Positions 1-63,572 of a stretch of DNA of 64,000 bases are shown piece after piece. The first letter of the stretch is position 1, and each line of letters starts with the position of its first letter. The notes beneath the pieces were generated by a model. That model saw only the letters and a program-made list of their open reading frames with translations, searched no databases and was not told the DNA's origin. The translations under genes were made by a program, and so were the position numbers. The stretch is from Leisingera caerulea DSM 24564 (GTDB lineage: Bacteria > Pseudomonadota > Alphaproteobacteria > Rhodobacterales > Rhodobacteraceae), in assembly GCF_000473325.1 (NCBI RefSeq), contig NZ_AXBI01000019.1, forward strand, positions 1 to 64,000. Direction: 5' to 3'.

Positions 1-1385
1 TGCATATTGGCCAGGATCGCCTCATGCATGCGGGTGATCTCCAGCCAGCCGTCGCGGGAAAACCGCAGCTCCTTCTTGCGCATCTCGCCGGCCAGCACCG
101 TCAGGCGGCGGGCCACCACATCGCCCGCGGTCTCCAGCCGGATGGCGTATTCCATCAGGCTGCGGGCGGTCTTCAGCTGCTCCTCGCTGAACGCCTCCTC
201 CGGAACCGCCGCCACATACTGGCGGATGCCCGACAGGCAGGCGTTGACCTCTTCGTCCATCTGCTGCACCGCGCGGATCTGCTCCTTGCTGCCGCCCTCG
301 TACAGCTCCAGCACCGGGCGGAACATGGCGCCCACCTGGTCGGCCATCCGCAGCAGCTCGCGCTTGAGGTTGGCCACGGCCTGCGCGGGCGAGCCGTAGC
401 TGCCCTGCTCCAGCGCGCTGACCGGCCGCCCCGGCGGCTGCGCCCTGGGCGCCGCCGGGTCCGGGAACAGCCGCGCGAAGACACCGCCAAGCGGGGTGCA
501 GAGCGGCAGCGCCAGCAGCAAAAGCGCGGCGTTGAAGGCGAGATGCGCGCTGACCAGCATCTGGCCGCCCTGCGGATCGCCGAGCCAGCCCACCCGCAGC
601 GCCAGATTGGCGCCGAACAGGCACAGCACCGCCCAGGTGCCGCGCAGGGCCAGGTTGGCATAGGGAATGCGCCGCGCCCGCAGGTCCATGCCGCGGCTGA
701 GCCAGACCGGAATGAAGGCGGAGCCGAAATTCGCCCCCAGAACCAGCGACAGCCCGGCGGCAAAGGGAAGGGCGCCGATCTGCACCAGGGTGACGCACAT
801 CAGGATCGCCGCGACGGAGGAATGCATCACAAAGGCCAGCGCGCCGCCCGCCAGAAAGGCGGTGACATAGTCGCGCGCGAGGTAGCCCGCGATGGCGGGC
901 AGGAAGGCGCTGCCGCGGATCGGATCCATCGCCTCGCGCAGAAACCTGAGCGATATCAATATGAAGGCGACTCCCATCAGGATCCGCCCCAGCTGCCGCG
1001 CCTTTTTGGCCTCGGTCTTCACAAACAGGTAGCCGCCCGCCGCCAGCAGCACCGGCACCAGCCAGTCGAGCTTGAACGACAGGATCTGGATGATCAGCGC
1101 CGAGCCGAGATCGCCGCCCAGCACGATCGCCAGCCCGGTTGGAAAGGCGAGATAGCCGCTGGCGGCGAAGCCGGATGTGAGCAGCGCCACCGCGGCCGAG
1201 CTTTGCAGCACGATGGCGAGGATCAGCCCCATCAGGCCCGCCTGCAGATGGCTCTGCCGCCCGGTCAGCAGCCGCTGGAACGAGGCGCCATAGCTGCGCT
1301 CAATGCCGGTGCGCACCATCCGCACCGCATAAAGCAGCAGCATCGTCGCGCCCGCGAGGCTGATCAGAAATGTCAGTATCGCCAT
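1..1385 (-). CDS. Na/Pi cotransporter family protein with PhoU-like tail (partial)
   Basis: Likely sodium-dependent phosphate symporter of the inner membrane (NptA/PNaS type). About 461 codons are visible before the left edge cuts off the C-terminus. The N-terminus begins MAILTFLISLAGATMLLLYA and is followed by repeated hydrophobic segments. Two QSSAA/HSSVA-type motifs, one per half (LQSSAAVALLTSG and MHSSVAAILM), are the substrate-binding repeats typical of this family. After about residue 330 the chain turns hydrophilic and helical (ELLRMADQVGAMF, RLTVLAGEMRKKELRFS), as in PhoU domains fused to these carriers. The start ATG at 1385 lies three bases after the stop of the upstream phosphatase gene, so the two are probably one operon. 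The family is clear; the exact ion specificity is inferred. Confidence 0.88.
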   Translation of the reverse strand, partial: MAILTFLISLAGATMLLLYAVRMVRTGIERSYGASFQRLLTGRQSHLQAGLMGLILAIVLQSSAAVALLTSGFAASGYLAFPTGLAIVLGGDLGSALIIQILSFKLDWLVPVLLAAGGYLFVKTEAKKARQLGRILMGVAFILISLRFLREAMDPIRGSAFLPAIAGYLARDYVTAFLAGGALAFVMHSSVAAILMCVTLVQIGALPFAAGLSLVLGANFGSAFIPVWLSRGMDLRARRIPYANLALRGTWAVLCLFGANLALRVGWLGDPQGGQMLVSAHLAFNAALLLLALPLCTPLGGVFARLFPDPAAPRAQPPGRPVSALEQGSYGSPAQAVANLKRELLRMADQVGAMFRPVLELYEGGSKEQIRAVQQMDEEVNACLSGIRQYVAAVPEEAFSEEQLKTARSLMEYAIRLETAGDVVARRLTVLAGEMRKKELRFSRDGWLEITRMHEAILANM

Positions 1386-49225: not shown

Positions 49226-50764
49226 ATGGCACGCGAAAGGCGCAGCGGCGGACGCCGCGGCAAATCCTCCCGCTCCGGCGGCAGTATCGAGCAACTGCCC
49301 TGGAGCCAGGTGAAGAACACCTGCCCTCCGTTTGAGCTCTTGAACCCGGAGCAGATGGACCAGCTGCACGCCACCTCGATGCGGATCCTGTCGGAAGCGG
49401 GCATCCGGGTGATGGGCGAAAACGTGATGGAGATTTTCGAAGCTGCGGGCGCCATCGTCGACCGTGATAACAAGACCATCCGCATCGACGAAAGCATCGT
49501 TGCCGCGGCGCTGGAAACGGTGCCGCGCACGTTCACCCTGACCGCCCGCAACCGCGCAAAGCGGATCACCCTGGGCGGCGACAACGTGACCTTCGGACTG
49601 GTGGCCGGGCCGCCCAATGTCCATGACTGCGTCAACGGGCGGCGGCAGGGCAACCTCACCGACTACCAGAACTTCATCAAGCTGGCGCATCATTTCAACG
49701 CCATCCACCTGATCGGCAACCAGGTCACCGCGCCGCTGGAACTGCCTGCCAACAACCGCCATCTGGACACCTATCTGGCCAACCTGACCTATTCGGATCT
49801 GTCCTTCCACTGCTCTGCCATCGGCCGCGGCCGGGCGCTGGACGGAATAAACATGATGGCCATTTCCCGCGGCCAGGCGCCGGAGCAGCTGAAGGGCGAC
49901 CCCGGCGTGATCACCATCATCTCAGTGAACTCGCCGCGGCTGTTTGACGATGCGATGGGCGACGGGCTGATCGCCATGGCCGAATACGGCCAGCCGGTGA
50001 CGGTGACACCCTTCACCCTGATGGGCGCAATGACCCCGGTCACCCTGCCGGCGGCACTGGCCCAGCAGAACGCCGAAGCGCTGTTCGGGGTGGTGCTGAC
50101 CCAGCTTGTGACCCCTGGCACGCCGGTGATGTATGGCTCCTTCACCTCGAACGTGGATATGCGCAGCGGTGCGCCCGCATTCGGCACGCCGGAAAATGCC
50201 AAGGCCAATATCGCCGGCGGCCAGCTGGCGCGGCGCTATGGCATCCCCTACCGGACCTCCAACGCCAATGCCTCCAATGCAGTGGACCTGCAGGCGGCTT
50301 ATGAAACCATGATGGCGACCTGGGGCGCGGTGCTGGGCGGCGCCAATACCGTCTATCACGCGGCCGGATGGCTGGAGGGCGGCCTGACGGCGTCTTATGA
50401 GAAGTTCATCCTGGATGTGGAGATCATCCAGAACATGATCGAATTCCTGAAGCCGATGAAATTCGATGCGGACGAGCTGGGCTTTGACGCCATCCAGTCG
50501 GTGCCCAGCGGCGGCCATTTCTTTGGCGCCGAACACACGATGGCGCGCTATGAGAGCGCGTTTTACCGGCCGATGCTGTCGGACTGGCAGAACTATGAGA
50601 ACTGGGAAGCCGCAGGCGCAAAGGACGCGCTGCAGCGTGCCACCGGGCTCTGGCAGCAGGCGCTGCGCGATTACGAGGAACCGGCGATGGACCCCGCCAT
50701 CCGCGAGGAGCTGGACGCCTACGCGGCGCGGCGGCGGGAGGAAATCGGCGCCGGCGAGCCTTAA
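49226..50764 (+). CDS. MttB-family (trimethylamine methyltransferase-like) protein, second copy
   Basis: A 512-residue MttB-superfamily protein without an internal amber codon, so non-pyrrolysine. Characteristic segments are PEQMDQLHATSMRILSEAGI, FGLVAGPPNVHDCVNGRRQG, GTPVMYGSFTSNVDMRSGAP and AAGWLEGGLTASYEKFILD. It differs clearly from the copy at 13714 and probably has another substrate. As there, no corrinoid protein gene is nearby. It forms an operon with MmgE/PrpD. Confidence 0.9.
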   Translation: MARERRSGGRRGKSSRSGGSIEQLPWSQVKNTCPPFELLNPEQMDQLHATSMRILSEAGIRVMGENVMEIFEAAGAIVDRDNKTIRIDESIVAAALETVPRTFTLTARNRAKRITLGGDNVTFGLVAGPPNVHDCVNGRRQGNLTDYQNFIKLAHHFNAIHLIGNQVTAPLELPANNRHLDTYLANLTYSDLSFHCSAIGRGRALDGINMMAISRGQAPEQLKGDPGVITIISVNSPRLFDDAMGDGLIAMAEYGQPVTVTPFTLMGAMTPVTLPAALAQQNAEALFGVVLTQLVTPGTPVMYGSFTSNVDMRSGAPAFGTPENAKANIAGGQLARRYGIPYRTSNANASNAVDLQAAYETMMATWGAVLGGANTVYHAAGWLEGGLTASYEKFILDVEIIQNMIEFLKPMKFDADELGFDAIQSVPSGGHFFGAEHTMARYESAFYRPMLSDWQNYENWEAAGAKDALQRATGLWQQALRDYEEPAMDPAIREELDAYAARRREEIGAGEP

Positions 50765-56356: not shown

Positions 56357-56913
56357 GCTGAACGCATCAGCGGCTGCCACCGGCATCTGCACCGGCCCGG
56401 GAAGCTGACCAAAGCCCGGGCCTGCGTCGCATCGTGCGGGAGGGCCCGGGCGATGCCTGAAAACCGCCGTTCCGCCGTGCGATGGCCGGGCGGCGGACGA
56501 TGGACAGAGTATTCCACACTTTACGCACCAGCACGCCCTGGCGCGGCCTTGGAATGCAGTTATTTATCTAATTTCAATGTTTTAACAGACCCCCCCCGGA
56601 TGCGTGGCCCTTATCATCACATCCATCACCCGCGTTCATCAGGACGCGCCGTGCGGTCCAAAGGCGGCCGGGATCACGCCAAAGGCTCTGCTCCAAGCGG
56701 GTTGGCTGCCAAGACCCGCGCGGTTGCGGTCAAGCCGGGCCTCCCGGTCCGGTAGGCGCTCAGCCCCGGCCAGTCCCTCGGCAAGGCCGCCGCGCCCGGC
56801 GTGACCGGCAGCCAGCCCAGGCTTGCGAATCCGCCGCCCGGCCCCCCCGTTTCCGCCGCCCATGTCCGGGCTTTCTGTTTCTGGCGACTCACGTGCATGT
56901 GCTAAAGTGACGT
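56357..56913. other. Long intergenic region before the protease module
   Basis: 557 bases. It starts with a GC-rich stem, GCCCGGGCC at 56414-56422 and its inverse at 56443-56451, a likely CBS-gene terminator or repeat element. Around 56560-56590 is an AT-rich dip (TTATTTATCTAATTTCAATG) in otherwise GC-rich DNA, a candidate promoter. Open frames over the rest look non-coding. Confidence 0.45.
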
Positions 56914-58746
56914 ATGATAAAGGTAGAATATTTCGCCGGAGGTGAACTGCGCGCAGGGCAACGTTTGAGATCCGCCATGGTTGTCCCCGTCGATCCCGAA
57001 CGCGGCGCAGTGTCGCTGCCAGGCTGGCGCACCGTGCCCCTGAGCAGCAACCGCTTCCAATTGGTCGTCAACGGCGAATTGATCGACGAACGCGCCACAG
57101 AGCTGCGGCGGATTGAGGACCTGATCCCCATCCTGCGCGAAGCCGAGGCCAAACTCGAAACAGAGGACGAAAACCGTGCTGAGCGCTCGCTCCGGGCCGC
57201 GTTTGGCGGGCGGGCCTTCTCAGCGGTGCTGGACGAGACGGGGGCGCTCTTGCTGCCCACCGGCGAGGTCGCGGTGGGGTTCGAGACGGACATCACCGAA
57301 GACGCCGCCCTGGCCACCCTGGCCCGCTACGGCGCCAGGATCCTGCGGCGGCTGCCCCTTTCGGCCCCCGCATGGCTTGTCACAATACCCGAAGAGGACG
57401 GAGTTGCGCTTGCTTTGGCTCTGGCCGGCGAACCCGGCGTGCGCTTTGCGTCGCCCAATTTCATAGAAGAGGTCCCCGAGCGCCGCGCCGAGGCACCGCC
57501 CAATGCCCTTTTCGCCGAACAATGGCACCTCGAAAATACCGGCCAGGGAGGCGGTTTGCCAGGCGCGGATGTCAACGCGCGCGCCGCTTGGCGTTTCACC
57601 CGCGGCGCGCCCGAAATCGTTGTATGCATCATAGACAGCGGCGTTGAGCTTGCTCATCCTTCGTTTTCCGCGCCGGGCAAGATCGTGGCCCCCTTTGACG
57701 CCGCCGATGGCGACACTGATCCAGCCCCCATGGCATCGTCCCATGGCACCTCTTGCGCGGGCGTGGCAGTGGCCGGATGGGGCACGGGCGATGTGGTGGG
57801 CATTGCGCCCAATTGCCGGCTGATGCCCATTCGCCGGGCCGGTATCAGCGAGCATGTCAGGATGGCGGAGGCGTTTTCCTGGGCCTGGCAGCAGGGGGCC
57901 GATGTGATTTCCTGCAGTTTCGGCTATGACGGGCGGCCCTGGATCCTGCCCGACGTGGTGCGCGCGGCGATGGAAGAAGCCATCGCGCTCGGCCGGCAGG
58001 GGCGCGGCGCGGTGATAGTGTGGGCGGCAGGCAACGGCAATGAGGCGGTCTCAGACGATGAATGGGCGAGCCACCCCGAGACGCTGGCCGTCGCCGCCTC
58101 GACCGATATCGACAAACGCGCCGGCTACAGCGATTTCGGCCCCGAGATCGACGTCTGCGCCCCGAGCAGCGGCGGTTTCCGGTCGATCACCACGTCGTCC
58201 AACGGGGGCTATACCAGCTTTTTCGGCGGAACGTCGTCGGCCGCGCCGCTGGTGGCGGGTGTCGCCGCGCTTATGCTGTCGGTCTGCCCTGCGCTGACCG
58301 GCGCCGAAGTCCGCGCCATCCTGCGCTCAACTGCTGTCCAGATAGATGTGGAAGAAGGCGAGTACGACAATACCGGCCACAGCCGGTTCTACGGATACGG
58401 CAGGGTCGATGCGGCCCGCGCGCTGGAGGGTATTTCGCCTCTTATCGAAGCGCTGCGCGGCAGCCCCGCCCTTGCCGACATCGGCCTGATTGATGATTTC
58501 ACCGCCGCCTACCTTGCGCCCAGTGCCGCGGGTCAGGCCATCCTCGCATATTTAAACACCCGGCGTTTCATTATCCTTTCGCTGCTCAAGAGCGACATCG
58601 CGTTCCGGCAAAGGGCGCAGACCGTTCTCGAAACGATCATTCAATTCATGAAAGGAGGAGAACATCCAGACGACATCACAGACGCCGCAGTGCTTGCTCT
58701 GACAGGTGCAGCGCAAGACCTCATCGGCGCGTCCATACCTAGTTGA
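56914..58746 (+). CDS. Cytoplasmic subtilisin-like (S8) protease, first gene of a three-gene module
   Basis: A 610-residue serine protease with no signal peptide. Residues about 1-110 are a charged region of unknown type. About 115-200 resemble a subtilisin propeptide (GEVAVGFETDITEDAALATL, GVRFASPNFIEEVPE). The catalytic domain has Asp241 in IIDSGVELAHPS, His277 in SSHGTSCAG, the oxyanion Asn374 in WAAGNGNE and Ser441 in GGTSSAAPLVAG. The last 100 residues are helical. The complete triad means it is active. It is followed 33 bases later by two small membrane-anchored proteins, so the likely target is membrane-proximal. The role is unknown; proteolytic signalling or defence is a hypothesis. 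Confidence 0.9.
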   Translation: MIKVEYFAGGELRAGQRLRSAMVVPVDPERGAVSLPGWRTVPLSSNRFQLVVNGELIDERATELRRIEDLIPILREAEAKLETEDENRAERSLRAAFGGRAFSAVLDETGALLLPTGEVAVGFETDITEDAALATLARYGARILRRLPLSAPAWLVTIPEEDGVALALALAGEPGVRFASPNFIEEVPERRAEAPPNALFAEQWHLENTGQGGGLPGADVNARAAWRFTRGAPEIVVCIIDSGVELAHPSFSAPGKIVAPFDAADGDTDPAPMASSHGTSCAGVAVAGWGTGDVVGIAPNCRLMPIRRAGISEHVRMAEAFSWAWQQGADVISCSFGYDGRPWILPDVVRAAMEEAIALGRQGRGAVIVWAAGNGNEAVSDDEWASHPETLAVAASTDIDKRAGYSDFGPEIDVCAPSSGGFRSITTSSNGGYTSFFGGTSSAAPLVAGVAALMLSVCPALTGAEVRAILRSTAVQIDVEEGEYDNTGHSRFYGYGRVDAARALEGISPLIEALRGSPALADIGLIDDFTAAYLAPSAAGQAILAYLNTRRFIILSLLKSDIAFRQRAQTVLETIIQFMKGGEHPDDITDAAVLALTGAAQDLIGASIPS

Positions 58747-58779
58747 AGTTTAAAACTCCAAGCAAAGGGAGGTCTATTC

Positions 58780-59487
58780 ATGTCGAAAACATATTCAGAT
58801 CCGCGCGGAAAGCGCAGCACAAGAACCAAACCTTCCCCGGATGAGCGGTCGCAAACAGGCGAACGCTCGGTTGAGGATGTATTGTCGGAATTGGTAGCCA
58901 TGCTGGAAAATTCCGGCGCCGTTTCGGGGGCGGGCACGGGCAGCAGCAGCACACGCGGCACGCCGGAAACCGGCAATGGCACAGCTCCGGCCGCGGCCGC
59001 ATCGGGAAACCGGTCCAGCCGAACGATGGGCGATACCAAAGCCCCGCCGCTCGATGCGCTGTCCATGGCTGGTCTTGACCGCGGGTGCATTCTGCTGCCC
59101 GATTGGCTGAAAAACCTTCAAAAGATGCCTTATGCACAAGGGCAGATCGACAAGGCGATCGCAGGAGCAGGCGAGCCCGGAAGCTTGCCCAACGCTGACG
59201 AGCGCGCCGTCTGGTTTCTGGCGCCCTGGGTGGTTGCCGGCGGCGTCTGGCTGGCCGGAGAGCTGATCGAAGACGATGAGGATGACAATCGCGCCTTCCT
59301 TCCGCCCTTTCCCATCATCCTGCCGATCATCATCCAGAATGCCATTATCGAAAAGCTGATCGAAAAATTCTCTTCCGATGACGGCGAACGCTTTGTCCCT
59401 GCGTTCATTGCCGTCACCGGGCTGTTCGCGGCGGGCCTCGCCACGGGCAGCACCGGCAAGAAGCTGTGGAAGAAATACGTCGATTAA
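58780..59487 (+). CDS. Membrane protein of unknown family in the protease module
   Basis: A 235-residue protein. The first 100 residues are polar and low-complexity (Ser/Thr/Gly/Ala-rich), with one helix SVEDVLSELVAMLENSG. Hydrophobic segments follow at about 145-162 (AVWFLAPWVVAGGVWLAG), 171-195 (LPPFPIILPIIIQNAIIEKL) and 208-225 (VPAFIAVTGLFAAGLATG), ending in KKLWKKYVD. There is no signal peptide. A GGGAGG site precedes the start. No family is recognised. The flexible N-terminus could be a protease substrate. Confidence 0.8.
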   Translation: MSKTYSDPRGKRSTRTKPSPDERSQTGERSVEDVLSELVAMLENSGAVSGAGTGSSSTRGTPETGNGTAPAAAASGNRSSRTMGDTKAPPLDALSMAGLDRGCILLPDWLKNLQKMPYAQGQIDKAIAGAGEPGSLPNADERAVWFLAPWVVAGGVWLAGELIEDDEDDNRAFLPPFPIILPIIIQNAIIEKLIEKFSSDDGERFVPAFIAVTGLFAAGLATGSTGKKLWKKYVD

Positions 59488-59511
59488 CTCAATCCGATCC
59501 GGAGAAAAGCA

Positions 59512-59976
59512 ATGCCTGCGAAACTCGACCCGACCAAGACCATCTTTGTCCCTCCGCCAACCTTTCCGCCCTTTCCCGATCCCTTCGACCCCTGGCCCGG
59601 CGGCCCGTTCGGTCCGCCGCCGATCACGACCGCGCCGCGCACGACCCACGGCAGAGGCGAGCGCGCCGCCAGCGATCCTGCTGCGCTCGACGCGCTTATA
59701 GCCCGGCTTGTCGAAATGCTGTCCGATGCGCTTGAGCGGCAGGATTACGATGCCGTCATCAAGGCCTATGGCCCGGTGATCCAGAAGCAGCTTGAAAGCG
59801 ACCCAGACGCCATGGCCGCTTTTCGAGCGCTTTTTGAGCGTTACGGGATCGACCTTGATCAGTTCACCCTGCCCGCCACCGATGAGCGTGAGCCTGTGAC
59901 AATCGGCATTTCCGTGACGGTGGCGCTGATCGCCTTTGGCAGCGGTGCGGTCATCGGCTGGCTGGCCGAAGACTAA
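59512..59976 (+). CDS. Tail-anchored protein of unknown family in the protease module
   Basis: A 154-residue protein. The N-terminus is strikingly rich in Pro and Phe (FVPPPTFPPFPDPFDPWPGG). A helical middle follows (ALIARLVEMLSDALERQDYD, then KAYGPVIQKQLESDP), and one C-terminal membrane helix (ISVTVALIAFGSGAVIGWLA) ends two residues before the stop. That is a tail-anchor layout with the body in the cytoplasm. GGAG lies 8 bases before the ATG. The LVEML helix resembles the LVAML helix of the previous protein. No family is recognised. Confidence 0.8.
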   Translation: MPAKLDPTKTIFVPPPTFPPFPDPFDPWPGGPFGPPPITTAPRTTHGRGERAASDPAALDALIARLVEMLSDALERQDYDAVIKAYGPVIQKQLESDPDAMAAFRALFERYGIDLDQFTLPATDEREPVTIGISVTVALIAFGSGAVIGWLAED

Positions 59977-60195
59977 GCAATGTCCGGACTGGGCCGCCCG
60001 GCCTCCTGGCCCAGCCCGTCAGCGCGCCTGTCATCGCGGACGAACAAACCATGGATCGCTGAGAAGGCCGGATTCTTCAGCCCAGCCTGAGCGGCTGCTC
60101 TGTGTTGGAGTGTGCCCTCATTGCTGCCCCATCCCCCTGCACGGCCACCCCGGCGCGCCGCCTCAGGTGCTAAGGGCCCGCAGTGGCGGGCGGTG

Positions 60196-61077
60196 TCAGC
60201 GCCCGGCAGCCCCGATCCTGTGCCAAAGCTCATCCGCCACGGCGCCGGGCGGCTGATCTCTGCGTCTCATTTTGAAAATCATCGTGCGCCGCACCGGAAA
60301 CCTTTCCACGCTGAGGGACAGCAAGGCCCCGGTTCGCCGCTCGTCCTGGGTCATGTGGTCAGGCAGACCGCCCCAGCCGAGACCGGCGAGGATCACCTTT
60401 TTCTTGGCGGTGAGATCGGAGACCGTCCATTTCAGCCCGCCGGGCAGCAGATCGCGGCTTTGTTCGTGCGCCGCGCCGCCCGTGCCGGCGGCGACCACCT
60501 GCACATGGCCTTGCATCTCCGAAACCGAGAGCACACGGGAGCCGGCGGGCAGGTTCAAGGCAGGGCTGGCCACCGGCCGGATTATCACCTCCGCAACCGG
60601 CTCCGCCTCCACGTCATCCAGGGCCACCCCGTCCAGGGACGCAAGCGCAATATCCGCCTTGCCTTCCATCAGCCGGGCAATCGGGCCGCCCATCATCTCC
60701 ATCCGCAGCCGGAGATGGGTAGCCGGGTGGCGCCGCCCGGTGGCCGCCAGCACCGGCAGCAAAGGATCCAGATCCATGGTTGCGCTGACAGCTACTGTCA
60801 GCTCCGGCTCTTCGCGGGCACGCAGCCGGGCTGCGGTGCTGCGCAGCCCTTGCATCTGCCGCAGCACCCGCGACGCCTCGCGGTAGAAAATCTCACCCGC
60901 CGGTGTAAGCACGGGCCGGTAGGCCGCCCGGCTGAACAGCTCCAATTCCAGTTCCTCTTCCAGCTGGCGGATTGTGTGGCTGATGGCGGACTGCGATTTG
61001 TGCAGCCGCTCGGCCGCGCCGCGGAACGTGCCGGTTGAGACAATGGCCTCCAGGGCAATGAGCTGGTCGTGTTTCAT
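60196..61077 (-). CDS. LysR-family transcriptional regulator
   Basis: A 293-residue regulator with HTH LIALEAIVSTGTFRGAAER then KSQSAISHTIRQLEEELEL and a standard effector domain. It is divergent from the GST operon across 109 AT-rich bases and is its probable activator. The inducer is unknown. Bases 59977-60195, between the protease module and this gene, hold nothing I recognise. Confidence 0.9.
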   Translation of the reverse strand: MKHDQLIALEAIVSTGTFRGAAERLHKSQSAISHTIRQLEEELELELFSRAAYRPVLTPAGEIFYREASRVLRQMQGLRSTAARLRAREEPELTVAVSATMDLDPLLPVLAATGRRHPATHLRLRMEMMGGPIARLMEGKADIALASLDGVALDDVEAEPVAEVIIRPVASPALNLPAGSRVLSVSEMQGHVQVVAAGTGGAAHEQSRDLLPGGLKWTVSDLTAKKKVILAGLGWGGLPDHMTQDERRTGALLSLSVERFPVRRTMIFKMRRRDQPPGAVADELWHRIGAAGR

Positions 61078-61186
61078 CGGGCTGCAACTTGTTCATTTTT
61101 TCTAATCATATCGCTGAAAACATAATATTATCAATCTATCATTTCGGCGGGTAGTCAGGACGTATCAATCAACACAGGAGATTGTT

Positions 61187-61798
61187 ATGAAACTGTACTA
61201 CAAACCCGGCGCCTGCCCGCTGGCCAGCCACATCGCCCTGCAGGAAACCGGCCGCCCGTTTGAAATCGAGGCCGTCGATACCGCGGCGGGCCGCACCGAA
61301 AGCGGCGCAGATTACTGCGCGATCAACCCCAAAGGCTATGTGCCGGCCCTGCATCTGGACGACGGCAGCGTTCTGACCGAAGGGGCGGCGGTTCTGCAGT
61401 ATATCGCCGACAGCAGCCCGGAGGCAGGCCTGGCGCCCGCCGCCGGAACAATGGACCGGGCCCGGATGCAGGAACAGCTCAACTGGATCGGAACCGAATT
61501 GCACAAGGCATTCGGCCCGCTGTTCCGCGAGGGCACATCCGAGGCCGGCAAAGATGCGGCCCGCACCGCTGTTGCAGGCAAGTTCGATATCATCGAGGCG
61601 CAGCTGGAGGATGGCCGCGTGTGGCTGGTTGCGGACCGCTTCTCCGTCGCTGATGCCTATCTGTTTGTGGTCTCGAACTGGGCCAATTTCACCGGCATCG
61701 ACCTGGGCCGCTGGCCCCGGCTGGCTGCATTTGTAAGCCGCTGCGCTGCCCGCCCGTCGGCGCAGGCGGCGATGCGCGCCGAGGGGCTGATCCAATGA
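61187..61798 (+). CDS. Glutathione S-transferase
   Basis: A 203-residue GST, bacterial beta-class-like. The thioredoxin-fold N-terminus is MKLYYKPGACPLASHIALQE with the characteristic cysteine at position 10, and the C-terminal helical domain has VADRFSVADAYLFVVSNWA. It is first of four overlapping or adjacent genes. It may conjugate or isomerise an electrophilic intermediate made by the downstream enzymes. An AGGAG site supports the start. Confidence 0.9.
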   Translation: MKLYYKPGACPLASHIALQETGRPFEIEAVDTAAGRTESGADYCAINPKGYVPALHLDDGSVLTEGAAVLQYIADSSPEAGLAPAAGTMDRARMQEQLNWIGTELHKAFGPLFREGTSEAGKDAARTAVAGKFDIIEAQLEDGRVWLVADRFSVADAYLFVVSNWANFTGIDLGRWPRLAAFVSRCAARPSAQAAMRAEGLIQ

Positions 61799-62175
61799 CG
61801 CCCGCAGACCACAAAAAGGTCGGCGGCCTGATGGAGGCCTATTTCGAAGGCCTGCATCAGGCCGACAGCACCATGCTGCGCCAGGTGTTTCACCCGCAGC
61901 TGGCCTATGTCTGCGCCACCGAAGGCGATGAGCTGTATCTGGATCTTGAAACCTACATGGGCCGCGTGGACGGGCGCGAGCCGCCGGCCAGGCGCGGCGA
62001 CCCGCGCCAGGAGGAGATCCTGGAGATTGCCTTTGCCGGCAGCAGGCTGGCCCGTGTCAGCGCCCGCATGACCATGATGGGGCGGGAGTTTCACGATCTG
62101 CTGACCCTTGTCCGCGACGGCGCCGAATGGCGCATCGTTGCAAAAGTGTTCTCATATGCCCCGCGGAAGGACTGA
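61795..62175 (+). CDS. NTF2-like (SnoaL/lumazine-binding type) protein
   Basis: A 126-residue small alpha+beta barrel protein. The pattern KVGGLMEAYFEGLHQADSTM, then LRQVFHPQ, and a late DLLTLVRDGAEWRIVAKVF is that of NTF2-like proteins annotated as lumazine-binding or SnoaL-like. Members are isomerases, dehydratases or binding proteins. It overlaps the GST gene by four bases. Confidence 0.82.
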   Translation: MTPADHKKVGGLMEAYFEGLHQADSTMLRQVFHPQLAYVCATEGDELYLDLETYMGRVDGREPPARRGDPRQEEILEIAFAGSRLARVSARMTMMGREFHDLLTLVRDGAEWRIVAKVFSYAPRKD

Positions 62176-62178
62176 CCG

Positions 62179-62400
62179 ATGCCCTATGTGAATATTAAAG
62201 TGACGCGCGAAGGCGGCCCCGAGGGCACCGGCCCGAGTGCAGACCAGAAGGCGCAGCTGATCGCTGGTGTCACCGGCCTGTTGCACGATGTTCTGGGCAA
62301 GAACCCTGCGACGACCTTTGTGGTGATCGACGAGGTCCCGCTGGAGGATTGGGGCATCGGCGGCCTGCCGGTGCAGGAGCACAGGGCCCAGGCGCAATGA
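62179..62400 (+). CDS. 4-oxalocrotonate tautomerase family protein
   Basis: A 73-residue tautomerase starting MPYVNIKVTREGG with the catalytic N-terminal proline. It starts three bases after the NTF2-like stop and overlaps the next gene by four bases. Proteins of this family isomerise enols in aromatic or halo-acid breakdown, in line with the neighbouring GST and monooxygenase. Confidence 0.88.
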   Translation: MPYVNIKVTREGGPEGTGPSADQKAQLIAGVTGLLHDVLGKNPATTFVVIDEVPLEDWGIGGLPVQEHRAQAQ

Positions 62401-63368
62401 AGACCCGGCTGACAGAGGCGCTGGGGATCGCCTGTCCGGTGATCCAGGCGCCGATGGCCTTTGCTGCGGGCGGCGCGCTGGCCAGCGCCGTCACGGATGC
62501 CGGCGGGCTGGGCATGATCGGGGGCGCCTACGGCGATGCCGCGTGGATCAATCAGCAGTTCGATATCGCCGCCGGCACGCGCGCGGGCTGCGGACTGATC
62601 ACCTGGAAGCTTGCGCAACAGCCGCATCTGCTGGATCAGGTGCTGGCGCGCGATCCGGCGGCGCTGTTTTTGTCCTTCGGCAATCCGGCACCCTTTGCAC
62701 CGGCGGTCCGGGACGCCGGCGTGCCGTTGATCTGCCAAGTCCAGACCCTGCGCGATGCGCGGCAGGCACTGGACTGCGGCGCGGACATCGTTGTCGCCCA
62801 GGGGGCGGATGCCGGCGGCCACGGCGAGGCCCGCGGCACCTTTGCCCTGGTGCCCGAAATCGCTGACGAGATCGCGCGCCGGAACAGCAAGGCGCTGCTG
62901 TGCGCGGCCGGGGGCATCACCGACGGGCGCGGTCTGGCTGCGGCCCTGATGCTGGGGGCGGACGGTGCGGTGATCGGCACCCGGTTCTGGGCCTCGCGCG
63001 AGGCGCTGGTGCACCCGCGCATTCTGGCGCGCGCGCTGTCGGCGACGGGGGACGACACCATCCGCACGCGGGTGGTGGACGTGGTCCGCGGTTTTGACTG
63101 GCCCGGCCGCTACAACGGCCGGGTGCTGCGCAACCCGTTTATCCGGAAATGGCACGGCTCCGAAGACGCCTTGAAGCTGGGAACGGGTGCCGAAGCTGCA
63201 CAATGGGCGGCGGCTCAGGATGCCGGGGATCCGGATGTCGCGACCGCCTTTGCCGGCGAAGGTATCGGGCTGATCCGCTCTGCGCCGCCTGCCGGCGAAA
63301 TCCTGGTCAGCCTCGCTGCAGATGCACAGCGGTGCCTGGGGGCAGCGGCGTCCGTTGCCGGCGGCTGA
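62397..63368 (+). CDS. Nitronate monooxygenase family (NPD-type) flavoprotein
   Basis: A 323-residue FMN barrel enzyme. Family segments are ACPVIQAPMAFAAGGALASA, GADAGGHGEARGTFALVPEI with the conserved histidine, and AAGGITDGRGLAAALMLGAD. It oxidises nitronates or related nitroalkanes, though many members are of unknown substrate. The ATG overlaps the upstream stop (ATGA), which fixes the start. It ends the LysR-controlled operon. Confidence 0.88.
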   Translation: MKTRLTEALGIACPVIQAPMAFAAGGALASAVTDAGGLGMIGGAYGDAAWINQQFDIAAGTRAGCGLITWKLAQQPHLLDQVLARDPAALFLSFGNPAPFAPAVRDAGVPLICQVQTLRDARQALDCGADIVVAQGADAGGHGEARGTFALVPEIADEIARRNSKALLCAAGGITDGRGLAAALMLGADGAVIGTRFWASREALVHPRILARALSATGDDTIRTRVVDVVRGFDWPGRYNGRVLRNPFIRKWHGSEDALKLGTGAEAAQWAAAQDAGDPDVATAFAGEGIGLIRSAPPAGEILVSLAADAQRCLGAAASVAGG

Positions 63369-63516
63369 ATGACACGCTGTGCCCCGCGGCACGGATCTGA
63401 ACGGGCTTGGCTGCCTGATATGCCAAGTGGTCCAGGCCGCAGCACAGGCGGTGCACGCACGGTGCACAGGGGGTGTACGCAAGGCACCCCCTTCCCTGCT
63501 TTCGCCTGAAGACGTG

Positions 63517-63549
63517 AAAAAGCCCCGGATGTTTCCATCCGGGGCTTTT
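63517..63549. terminator. Strong bidirectional intrinsic terminator
   Basis: AAAGCCCCGGATG and CATCCGGGGCTTT form a 13-base perfect stem with a TTTC loop, with A- and T-tracts on both sides. It ends nqrF transcription 24 bases after its stop and may also terminate the facing operon. Confidence 0.9.
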
Positions 63550-63572
63550 GGTTTTCCTCTGCGCACTCCGGC

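Follow-up and report, generated by a model that had tools for sequence, protein, structure and literature searches.

Bacterial proteases encoded beside a partner protein form the background for this report, in which we examine a three-gene locus of Leisingera caerulea DSM 24564. The locus lies in a stretch of 64,000 nucleotides (contig NZ_AXBI01000019.1, positions 1 to 64,000; hereafter the window) and encodes a subtilase of family S8 followed by two small proteins, here called P2 and P3. By the sequence of its catalytic domain, its triad, its prodomain and the acidic residues at or near the pocket positions of kexin, the window protease resembles S8 subtilases with a fervidolysin-type prodomain, from which it differs in having an N-terminal domain of its own, no visible signal peptide, no P-domain, and a membrane module that occurs as a tail or as a separate gene. 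Two partnered subtilases can be likened to it by description. Aeromonas sobria secretes the kexin-group subtilase ASP, whose gene is directly followed by the small partner gene ORF2 (PMC5638518, here from the available part of the article); the window has the same order of a bacterial subtilase gene and a small partner gene, but its S8 protein lacks a visible signal peptide, and its partner P2 has hydrophobic segments and occurs fused to the protease in relatives. PopC of Myxococcus xanthus, in turn, is a subtilisin-like protease without a recognised signal peptide, under the control of a partner protein, PopD; unlike the case considered here, however, PopC is secreted, by starving cells, and PopD is not presented as a membrane protein in the available part of PMC6434023.

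Gasdermin-protease pairs also place a protease gene beside a possible membrane-acting substrate, although neither P2 nor P3 has a gasdermin match in Pfam and the word 'subtilisin' does not occur in the available text of PMC9612521. The nuclease-protease pairs of the Hachiman and AVAST systems share the proposed principle that a partner is activated by a protease cut, but in the available part of PMC12799240 they join a trypsin-like protease to a nuclease, whereas the window joins a subtilase to a membrane-type protein.

In this study, we find that the window protease and P2 very likely work together as one unit, because in 14 of the 33 members of its clade the protease itself ends in a tail homologous to P2; for these two genes, the module suggested by an initial annotation of the window is strongly supported. 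The clade comes from a search with the whole protease, in which a capped set of 7993 candidates was scored and at least 561 proteins reached E <=1e-40. Among the best 120 of these 561, 32 clusters (P0006-P0037; almost all from environmental assemblies, their entries bearing no NCBI organism name) form a distinct clade with the window protein, at 43-91% identity and E <=1.5e-110, set apart from the other matches. P0038 stands at their edge and, being truncated (363 residues), is omitted from the 33 rows analysed. At least 92% of the protease is covered by 27 of the 32 clusters, and the longest contig listed for clade members measures 52 kb.

At their C-termini, 14 of the 33 rows carry an A tail of 173-239 residues beyond the end of the window protease, five carry a B tail of another kind (89-173 residues), and 14, the window included, stop at that end or at most 19 residues further on. 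A profile of the A tails, built without P2, finds P2 at 1.4e-13, P0002 at 5e-15 and P0003 at 9e-15, E-values that hold for a small test set in which the best of 600 shuffled sequences reached 0.39; comparison of P2 with the A tails, profile against profile, gives a probability of 97.9 and E 4e-13. All 14 A tails have, by eye, a methionine at the would-be P2 start, the tblastn alignment of P0014 runs through the S8 gene into P2 on five of five L. caerulea plasmids, and in the window the two genes share one reading frame, with only TGA and 33 bases between them. On the protease tree, where the clade and P0040 split from three outsiders with support 100/99, the fused state requires six changes, at least three of them forced by well-supported branches, against a mean of 10.9 after shuffling; it is clustered on the tree yet has switched several times. 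P0006 and P0007 were labelled as having a putative split P2 because separate P2 clusters share their sources.

P2 itself consists of an N-terminal helix, a Gly/Ser/Thr-rich linker, a helical part and, as the initial annotation had noted, three hydrophobic segments, which hydropathy places at about residues 143-163, 172-195 and 204-224. It forms three clusters among about 5.8 billion clustered proteins, in a search that requires shared short words, and its diverged homologue is 55% identical (longest contig 5840). P2 and P3 were each without a match above cut-off in Pfam and NCBIfam and without a meaningful one in PADLOC, and the A tails gave no convincing Pfam or PDB match (best 0.0012, to DEC-1_N, and 0.39, respectively), so that the earlier statement that P2 and P3 belong to no known family holds in the libraries searched. 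The P2 structure model is of low confidence (mean predicted local distance difference test, pLDDT, 37.8). The B tails (P0010, P0019, P0020, P0021 and P0035) end in a short hydrophobic stretch, for example LPIIVGLIFRP; profile comparisons of the B tails with P2 and P3 showed no kinship.

The protease had been described as a full-triad S8 enzyme with a propeptide-like segment and no signal peptide, and each feature is borne out: Asp241, His277 and Ser441, the triad of the family, are invariant in the clade alignments (19/19 rows in one, 33/33 in the other), Pfam recognises a fervidolysin-type prodomain at residues 116-182, and hydropathy finds no hydrophobic window in residues 1-195. Arginine occupies position 190, at the junction of prodomain and mature enzyme, in all 33 rows, as do aspartates at both 339 and 382. 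In a profile alignment Asp382 coincides with the aspartate in kexin's D-G-Y stretch, a residue that we take to line the pocket for a P1 arginine in kexin and furin, and Asp339 sits in the neighbouring kexin loop, where the alignment has a two-residue gap. The nearest solved chains by profile are Mirolase, then kexin, AK.1 protease, furin and thermitase; a P-domain (PF01483) was absent from the Pfam scan of the window protein and from the precomputed domains of P0006-P0038. From these residues we infer an arginine-specific protease with a kexin-like pocket. A profile of its N-terminal domain matches 31 of the 32 clade clusters (P0032 with no better than 1.5e-4; the region is absent from P0022) and, beyond the clade, P0040 from an Actinomycetota metagenome-assembled genome (5.6e-13) and, weakly, P0103; on the open reading frames of 157 fetched loci it matched those of the window and Leisingera only.

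The arginines of P2 follow a pattern. ER or NR precedes each of its three hydrophobic stretches and one in P3, and Glu203-Arg204, invariant in the 17 rows of P2s and tails (two of which are P2s 86% alike), is also present in 11 of 11 sequences of alignment A4. Arginine is preceded by glutamate in 120 of 613 cases (20%) in the N-regions of the clade, in 47 of 210 (22%) and 16 of 73 in the A and B tails, and in 14 of 39 (36%) and 9 of 24 (38%) in the P2s and P3s. The corresponding counts are 12 of 528 (2%) in the catalytic domains of the clade and 16 of 316 (5%) in the C-terminal helical part. In the N-regions of relatives outside the clade the count is 84 of 1400 (6%), and RE occurs there about equally often (92). 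P0022 and P0024 are omitted from the S8 parts, and the non-clade comparison sets 86 of 87 proteins beside the 31 clade proteins whose mature start could be recognised. In single sequences, the ER excess reaches significance in P2, P0003 and P3. We read the ER sites as likely cleavage sites.

P3 can be tied only weakly to the unit. Only its operon position and its presence in the closest relatives agree with the module that had been proposed. It was described as proline-rich with a C-terminal hydrophobic segment, which hydropathy finds at residues 127-153; where P3 reads D124-E125-R126, P0005 reads D-D-R. It forms two clusters in the same search of about 5.8 billion clustered proteins, is otherwise found in Leisingera only, and has a diverged homologue 63% identical (longest contig 5840); its structure model is again of low confidence (mean pLDDT 50.6). 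A P3 profile on the open reading frames of the 157 loci found nothing outside Leisingera except a match at E 0.37 in two overlapping loci. The short LVxML helix, once suggested as a contact motif shared by P2 and P3, was rejected, as it is not conserved: P0003 reads LAAML and P0005 LPDML.

A tentative but quite possible reading of these data is a cytoplasmic, self-processing, arginine-specific subtilase with a membrane module that is cut at Glu-Arg sites. The protease would free itself from its prodomain after Arg190 to yield the mature enzyme. P2 would be the protease's own C-terminal membrane module, still covalent in many relatives and a separate in-frame gene in the Leisingera lineage; it, and probably P3 too, would be anchored in the inner membrane by the C-terminal hydrophobic segment or segments and would hold or receive the protease there. 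The protease would then cut P2, perhaps also P3, after the conserved Glu-Arg, above all at the invariant site before the last hydrophobic segment, and the cut would part the soluble portion from the membrane peptide and so switch the complex, either by setting the protease and the P2 domain free in the cytoplasm or by releasing a hydrophobic peptide into the membrane. Should the cut be real, this would be a small, self-contained proteolytic membrane switch. Rather doubtful is the wider form of the idea, in which a bacterial membrane switch of this one plan, a cytoplasmic subtilase cutting its own detachable module at Glu-Arg and freeing a soluble, active protease complex or membrane-disrupting peptides, is found in many uncultured lineages with interchangeable A and B tails.

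Several points weigh against this reading. Cleavage, membrane insertion and protease activity are all inferred, none observed. The earlier suggestion that the membrane partner is a target of the protease would agree with Arg190 and with the invariant Glu-Arg that comes just ahead of the hydrophobic tail. The quality of the P2 and P3 structure models is too low for them to bear on the question. Neither arginine-related feature of the protease is peculiar to the clade, since Asp382 occurs in 62 of 87 non-clade relatives and a basic residue (Arg or Lys) at position 190 in 61 of 87. Glutamate precedes Arg190 in just 8 of 33 clade rows, so it is not required for the presumed self-cleavage. Tested one at a time, P0005, residues 1-195 of the window S8 protein, four of the five B tails and seven of the 14 A tails show no ER excess at p<0.05; RE is raised too in the A tails (26 of 210 arginines) and the P3s (4 of 24); the stretch that follows site 1 is hydrophobic in P2 but polar in most tails; and ER may serve otherwise, for example in binding or linker make-up. 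Eleven of the 33 clade rows are tail-less and five have a B tail, and some tail-less rows may end at contig ends, which would leave fewer real changes on the tree. P3, finally, could not be convincingly related to the tails (profile search 0.0018; profile-profile probability 8).

Other explanations of the same loci were weighed. P2 and P3 might not be substrates at all but chaperone, inhibitor or docking partners that keep the subtilase folded, silent and membrane-held until a signal arrives. A protease with a downstream partner gene is the layout of ASP and ORF2, where, in the available part of PMC5638518, the partner is both chaperone and temporary inhibitor; PopC, without a recognised signal peptide, is complexed with PopD, which inhibits its secretion, as stated in the available part of PMC6434023; and a fusion of partner and protease equally fits a built-in regulator. 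We consider this rather unlikely, as it leaves, by itself, the invariant ER before the hydrophobic tail unexplained, the S8 protein already has its own prodomain, and a soluble inhibitor would hardly be expected to have three hydrophobic segments. It is distinctly improbable that, while S8 and P2 belong together, P3 is an unrelated gene that is merely next in this lineage. Just two P3 clusters appear in the protein search and kinship to P2 is not shown, but P3 follows P2 at a spacing of 24 bases, is kept in the diverged relative (63%), and shares the layout of a helix and an Arg-preceded hydrophobic tail.

A cell-killing device for phage defence or stress, in which a triggered protease frees the hydrophobic segments of P2 and P3 to damage the inner membrane, in principle like the bacterial gasdermins that proteases activate, is unlikely. 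The protease does adjoin a partner with membrane-type segments, the locus is on a plasmid in L. caerulea, bacterial gasdermins often lie beside the proteases that cut them (PMC9612521, available part), and the clade is patchily distributed, the S8 profile finding a member in one of 394 genomes of the family and one of 398 of the phylum, each the window's own. Yet P2, P3 and the members of A4 have no Pfam gasdermin match, the operon has no sensor gene, the PADLOC match is limited to the catalytic domain, and no defence system was found among the scanned part of the genes at this spot in relatives. The subtilase might instead cut hydrophobic core peptides, as bacteriocins or signal peptides, from P2 and P3, since ER or NR stands before their hydrophobic stretches and NCBIfam models of peptide-maturation subtilases match the catalytic domain; these matches are far below cut-off, however (PatA/PatG 37 bits against 421, QhpE 30 against 165), the operon has no exporter, modifying enzyme or immunity gene, and the supposed precursor is part of the protease in many relatives, which would allow one peptide per enzyme. 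We regard peptide maturation as very improbable.

Table 1. Coordinates of the locus features and of the surrounding cargo spot (window positions)
Feature	Position	Strand	Basis
S8 subtilase (610 residues)	56914..58746	+	Open reading frame, Pfam; triad D241/H277/S441; no visible signal peptide
Clade-specific N-terminal domain (about residues 1-115)	56914..57258	+	Clade-built profile
Fervidolysin-type prodomain (residues 116-182)	57259..57459	+	Pfam PF22148, E 3.8e-5, 24.4 bits, cut-off 21
Arg190 codon, candidate P1 residue of prodomain self-cleavage	57481..57483	+	R in 33/33 clade rows; presumed cleavage
Catalytic domain (residues 234-496)	57613..58401	+	Pfam PF00082 Peptidase_S8, 4.1e-43
Stop codon of S8 plus the 33-base gap that contains the ribosome site of P2	58744..58779	+	AAAGGGAGG at 58764-58772
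P2 (235 residues)	58780..59487	+	Open reading frame; stand-alone form of tail fused to protease in relatives
P2 Glu141-Arg142, candidate cleavage site 1	59200..59205	+	R 16/17, E 13/17 P2/tail rows; presumed cleavage
P2 hydrophobic segment 1 (residues about 143-163)	59206..59268	+	Hydropathy
P2 hydrophobic segment 2 (residues about 172-195)	59293..59364	+	Hydropathy
P2 Glu203-Arg204, candidate cleavage site 2, abutting C-terminal hydrophobic segment	59386..59391	+	ER 17/17 P2/tail rows; presumed cleavage
P2 C-terminal hydrophobic segment (hydropathy window 204-224)	59389..59451	+	Hydropathy
P3 (154 residues)	59512..59976	+	Open reading frame; Pro-rich N-terminus, helical middle, C-terminal hydrophobic segment
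P3 C-terminal hydrophobic segment (residues 127-153)	59890-59970	+	Hydropathy; preceded by D124-E125-R126
Variable cargo spot between nqr-linked CBS gene and nqrF	56357-63572	n/a	Comparison across genus
LysR-gstA-NTF2-like-tautomerase-nitronate monooxygenase cassette	60196-63368	n/a	Comparison with relatives

The three genes are laid out as the initial annotation had it, tightly spaced and with good ribosome sites: the gaps are 33 and 24 bases, AAAGGGAGG ends 7 bases 5' of the P2 start, and CGGAG ends 7 bases 5' of the P3 start. A comparison with a single copy from L. caerulea puts omega at 0.05 for S8 and at 0.07 for both P2 and P3, which means few amino acid replacements, on small counts of 37, 11 and 11 changes. 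The locus contig is C4 of its assembly, and its relatives are Leisingera plasmids; five L. caerulea plasmids, each some 250 kb long, encode this protease with 98.5-99.2% identity, annotated on one of them as 'S8 family serine peptidase' followed by two 'hypothetical proteins'.

The unit of protease and membrane-type protein is real, rare and apparently undescribed; no description of the clade came to light in open-licence PubMed Central papers, to which the literature search was confined. The proteins of genomes G755 and G119 match the S8 profile over about residues 102-514 only, without the N-terminal domain. An S8 search of 289 genomes of the class returned the window's own clade member only, and one of the genome_contigs collection returned no further member among 139 relatives, 80 of which were kept, the best of these by E-value being 38% identical over S8 residues 37-504. 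In 50 genomes behind earlier loci, 15 matched the S8 profile at 1e-90 (best 2.6e-117; parts of 76-522 covered) and none held a clade member. Two further phyla, searched at 1e-120 in 77 and 70 genomes but with no positive control among them, gave none either. Plasmid searches found clade members in Leisingera only; the phage search gave distant S8 proteins only and the viral contigs one distant S8 protein, neither with a clade member. The P2 search of 195 genomes gave, besides the match of the window itself, two weak matches interrupted by stops, and that of genome_contigs nothing beyond the window's own. The tail profile found the window's own alone in 398 genomes and nothing outside Leisingera on the open reading frames of the 157 loci, which are not clade members by the N-domain profile; likewise, in 17 of the 80 genome_contigs subtilase loci, those inspected by eye and also not clade members, none had a P2- or P3-like neighbour. 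Gene fusion links an unnamed family of membrane-type proteins with this protease clade. The locus also provides Leisingera as a cultured host for proteases known elsewhere almost solely from environmental assemblies, and the testable residues S441, R190, R142 and R204.

The locus is flanked by nqrM, apbE, a hypothetical gene and a CBS gene on one side, an order kept in 19 of 20 relatives, and by the LysR-gstA cassette and nqrF on the other. It had been read as acquired cargo in a split nqr locus. The cargo part fits, as the interval varies and the trio is absent from the CBS region of all 20 fetched relatives; the splitting does not, because relatives also have CBS and nqrF separated. In the 15 of 20 stretches that showed both genes, 0.8-10.7 kb of varying contents lay between them, so the trio did not split a compact nqr locus. 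In the two closest relatives by CBS identity (G010 and G014), the cassette occupies the same site in opposite order, at 85-94% identity and without the trio. In G002, G003 and G005 the LysR gene of the cassette and the nqr-linked CBS gene lie on separate contigs.

The site is a variable cargo spot, and nothing found points to a defence island. Its contents, listed for 16 of the 20 relatives (of the other four, L131 and L132 carry the LysR cassette, and L139 and L150 fall outside the listing), are mostly metabolic or regulatory, judged by eye from translated starts. PADLOC on seven spot open reading frames gave two short matches, mad1 (L137) and CasR (L140), in small frames whose starts resemble transcription regulators, and none for the other five; Pfam on seven gave Ig/cadherin/RTX repeats, a glycosyltransferase with polysaccharide deacetylase, DUF3131, CpXC, YceI and glutamine synthetase. 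A defence island was rejected, these scans of part of the spot genes having revealed no defence system. The IetAS defence system sets the AAA ATPase IetA beside the protease IetS; identity with it was likewise rejected, as the locus has no AAA ATPase neighbour and the PADLOC match of the S8 protein, to the IetS model at 17 bits, covers the catalytic domain only. With no defence partner adjoining, the phage-defence reading of the initial annotation gains no positive evidence, and a defence role of the trio is possible but unsupported. The spot in G019 (L148:5096-11357) holds, next to a CpXC-domain protein, a frame of 1844 residues that matched nothing in Pfam or PADLOC.

Elsewhere in the window, positions 49226-50764 hold a gene of the trimethylamine methyltransferase family, adjoined by MmgE/PrpD and aldehyde dehydrogenase genes (L. 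caerulea annotation). Among the fetched loci, an acidobacterial metagenome-assembled genome (L015:7665-14521) encodes a large subtilase whose start, by eye, lacks a signal peptide, followed by a frame of 969 residues that resembles an M14 carboxypeptidase by eye. On a Pantoea agglomerans plasmid (L086:3856-7455), a subtilase 35% identical to that of the window follows a gene for an N-acetylmuramoyl-L-alanine amidase and a hypothetical one.

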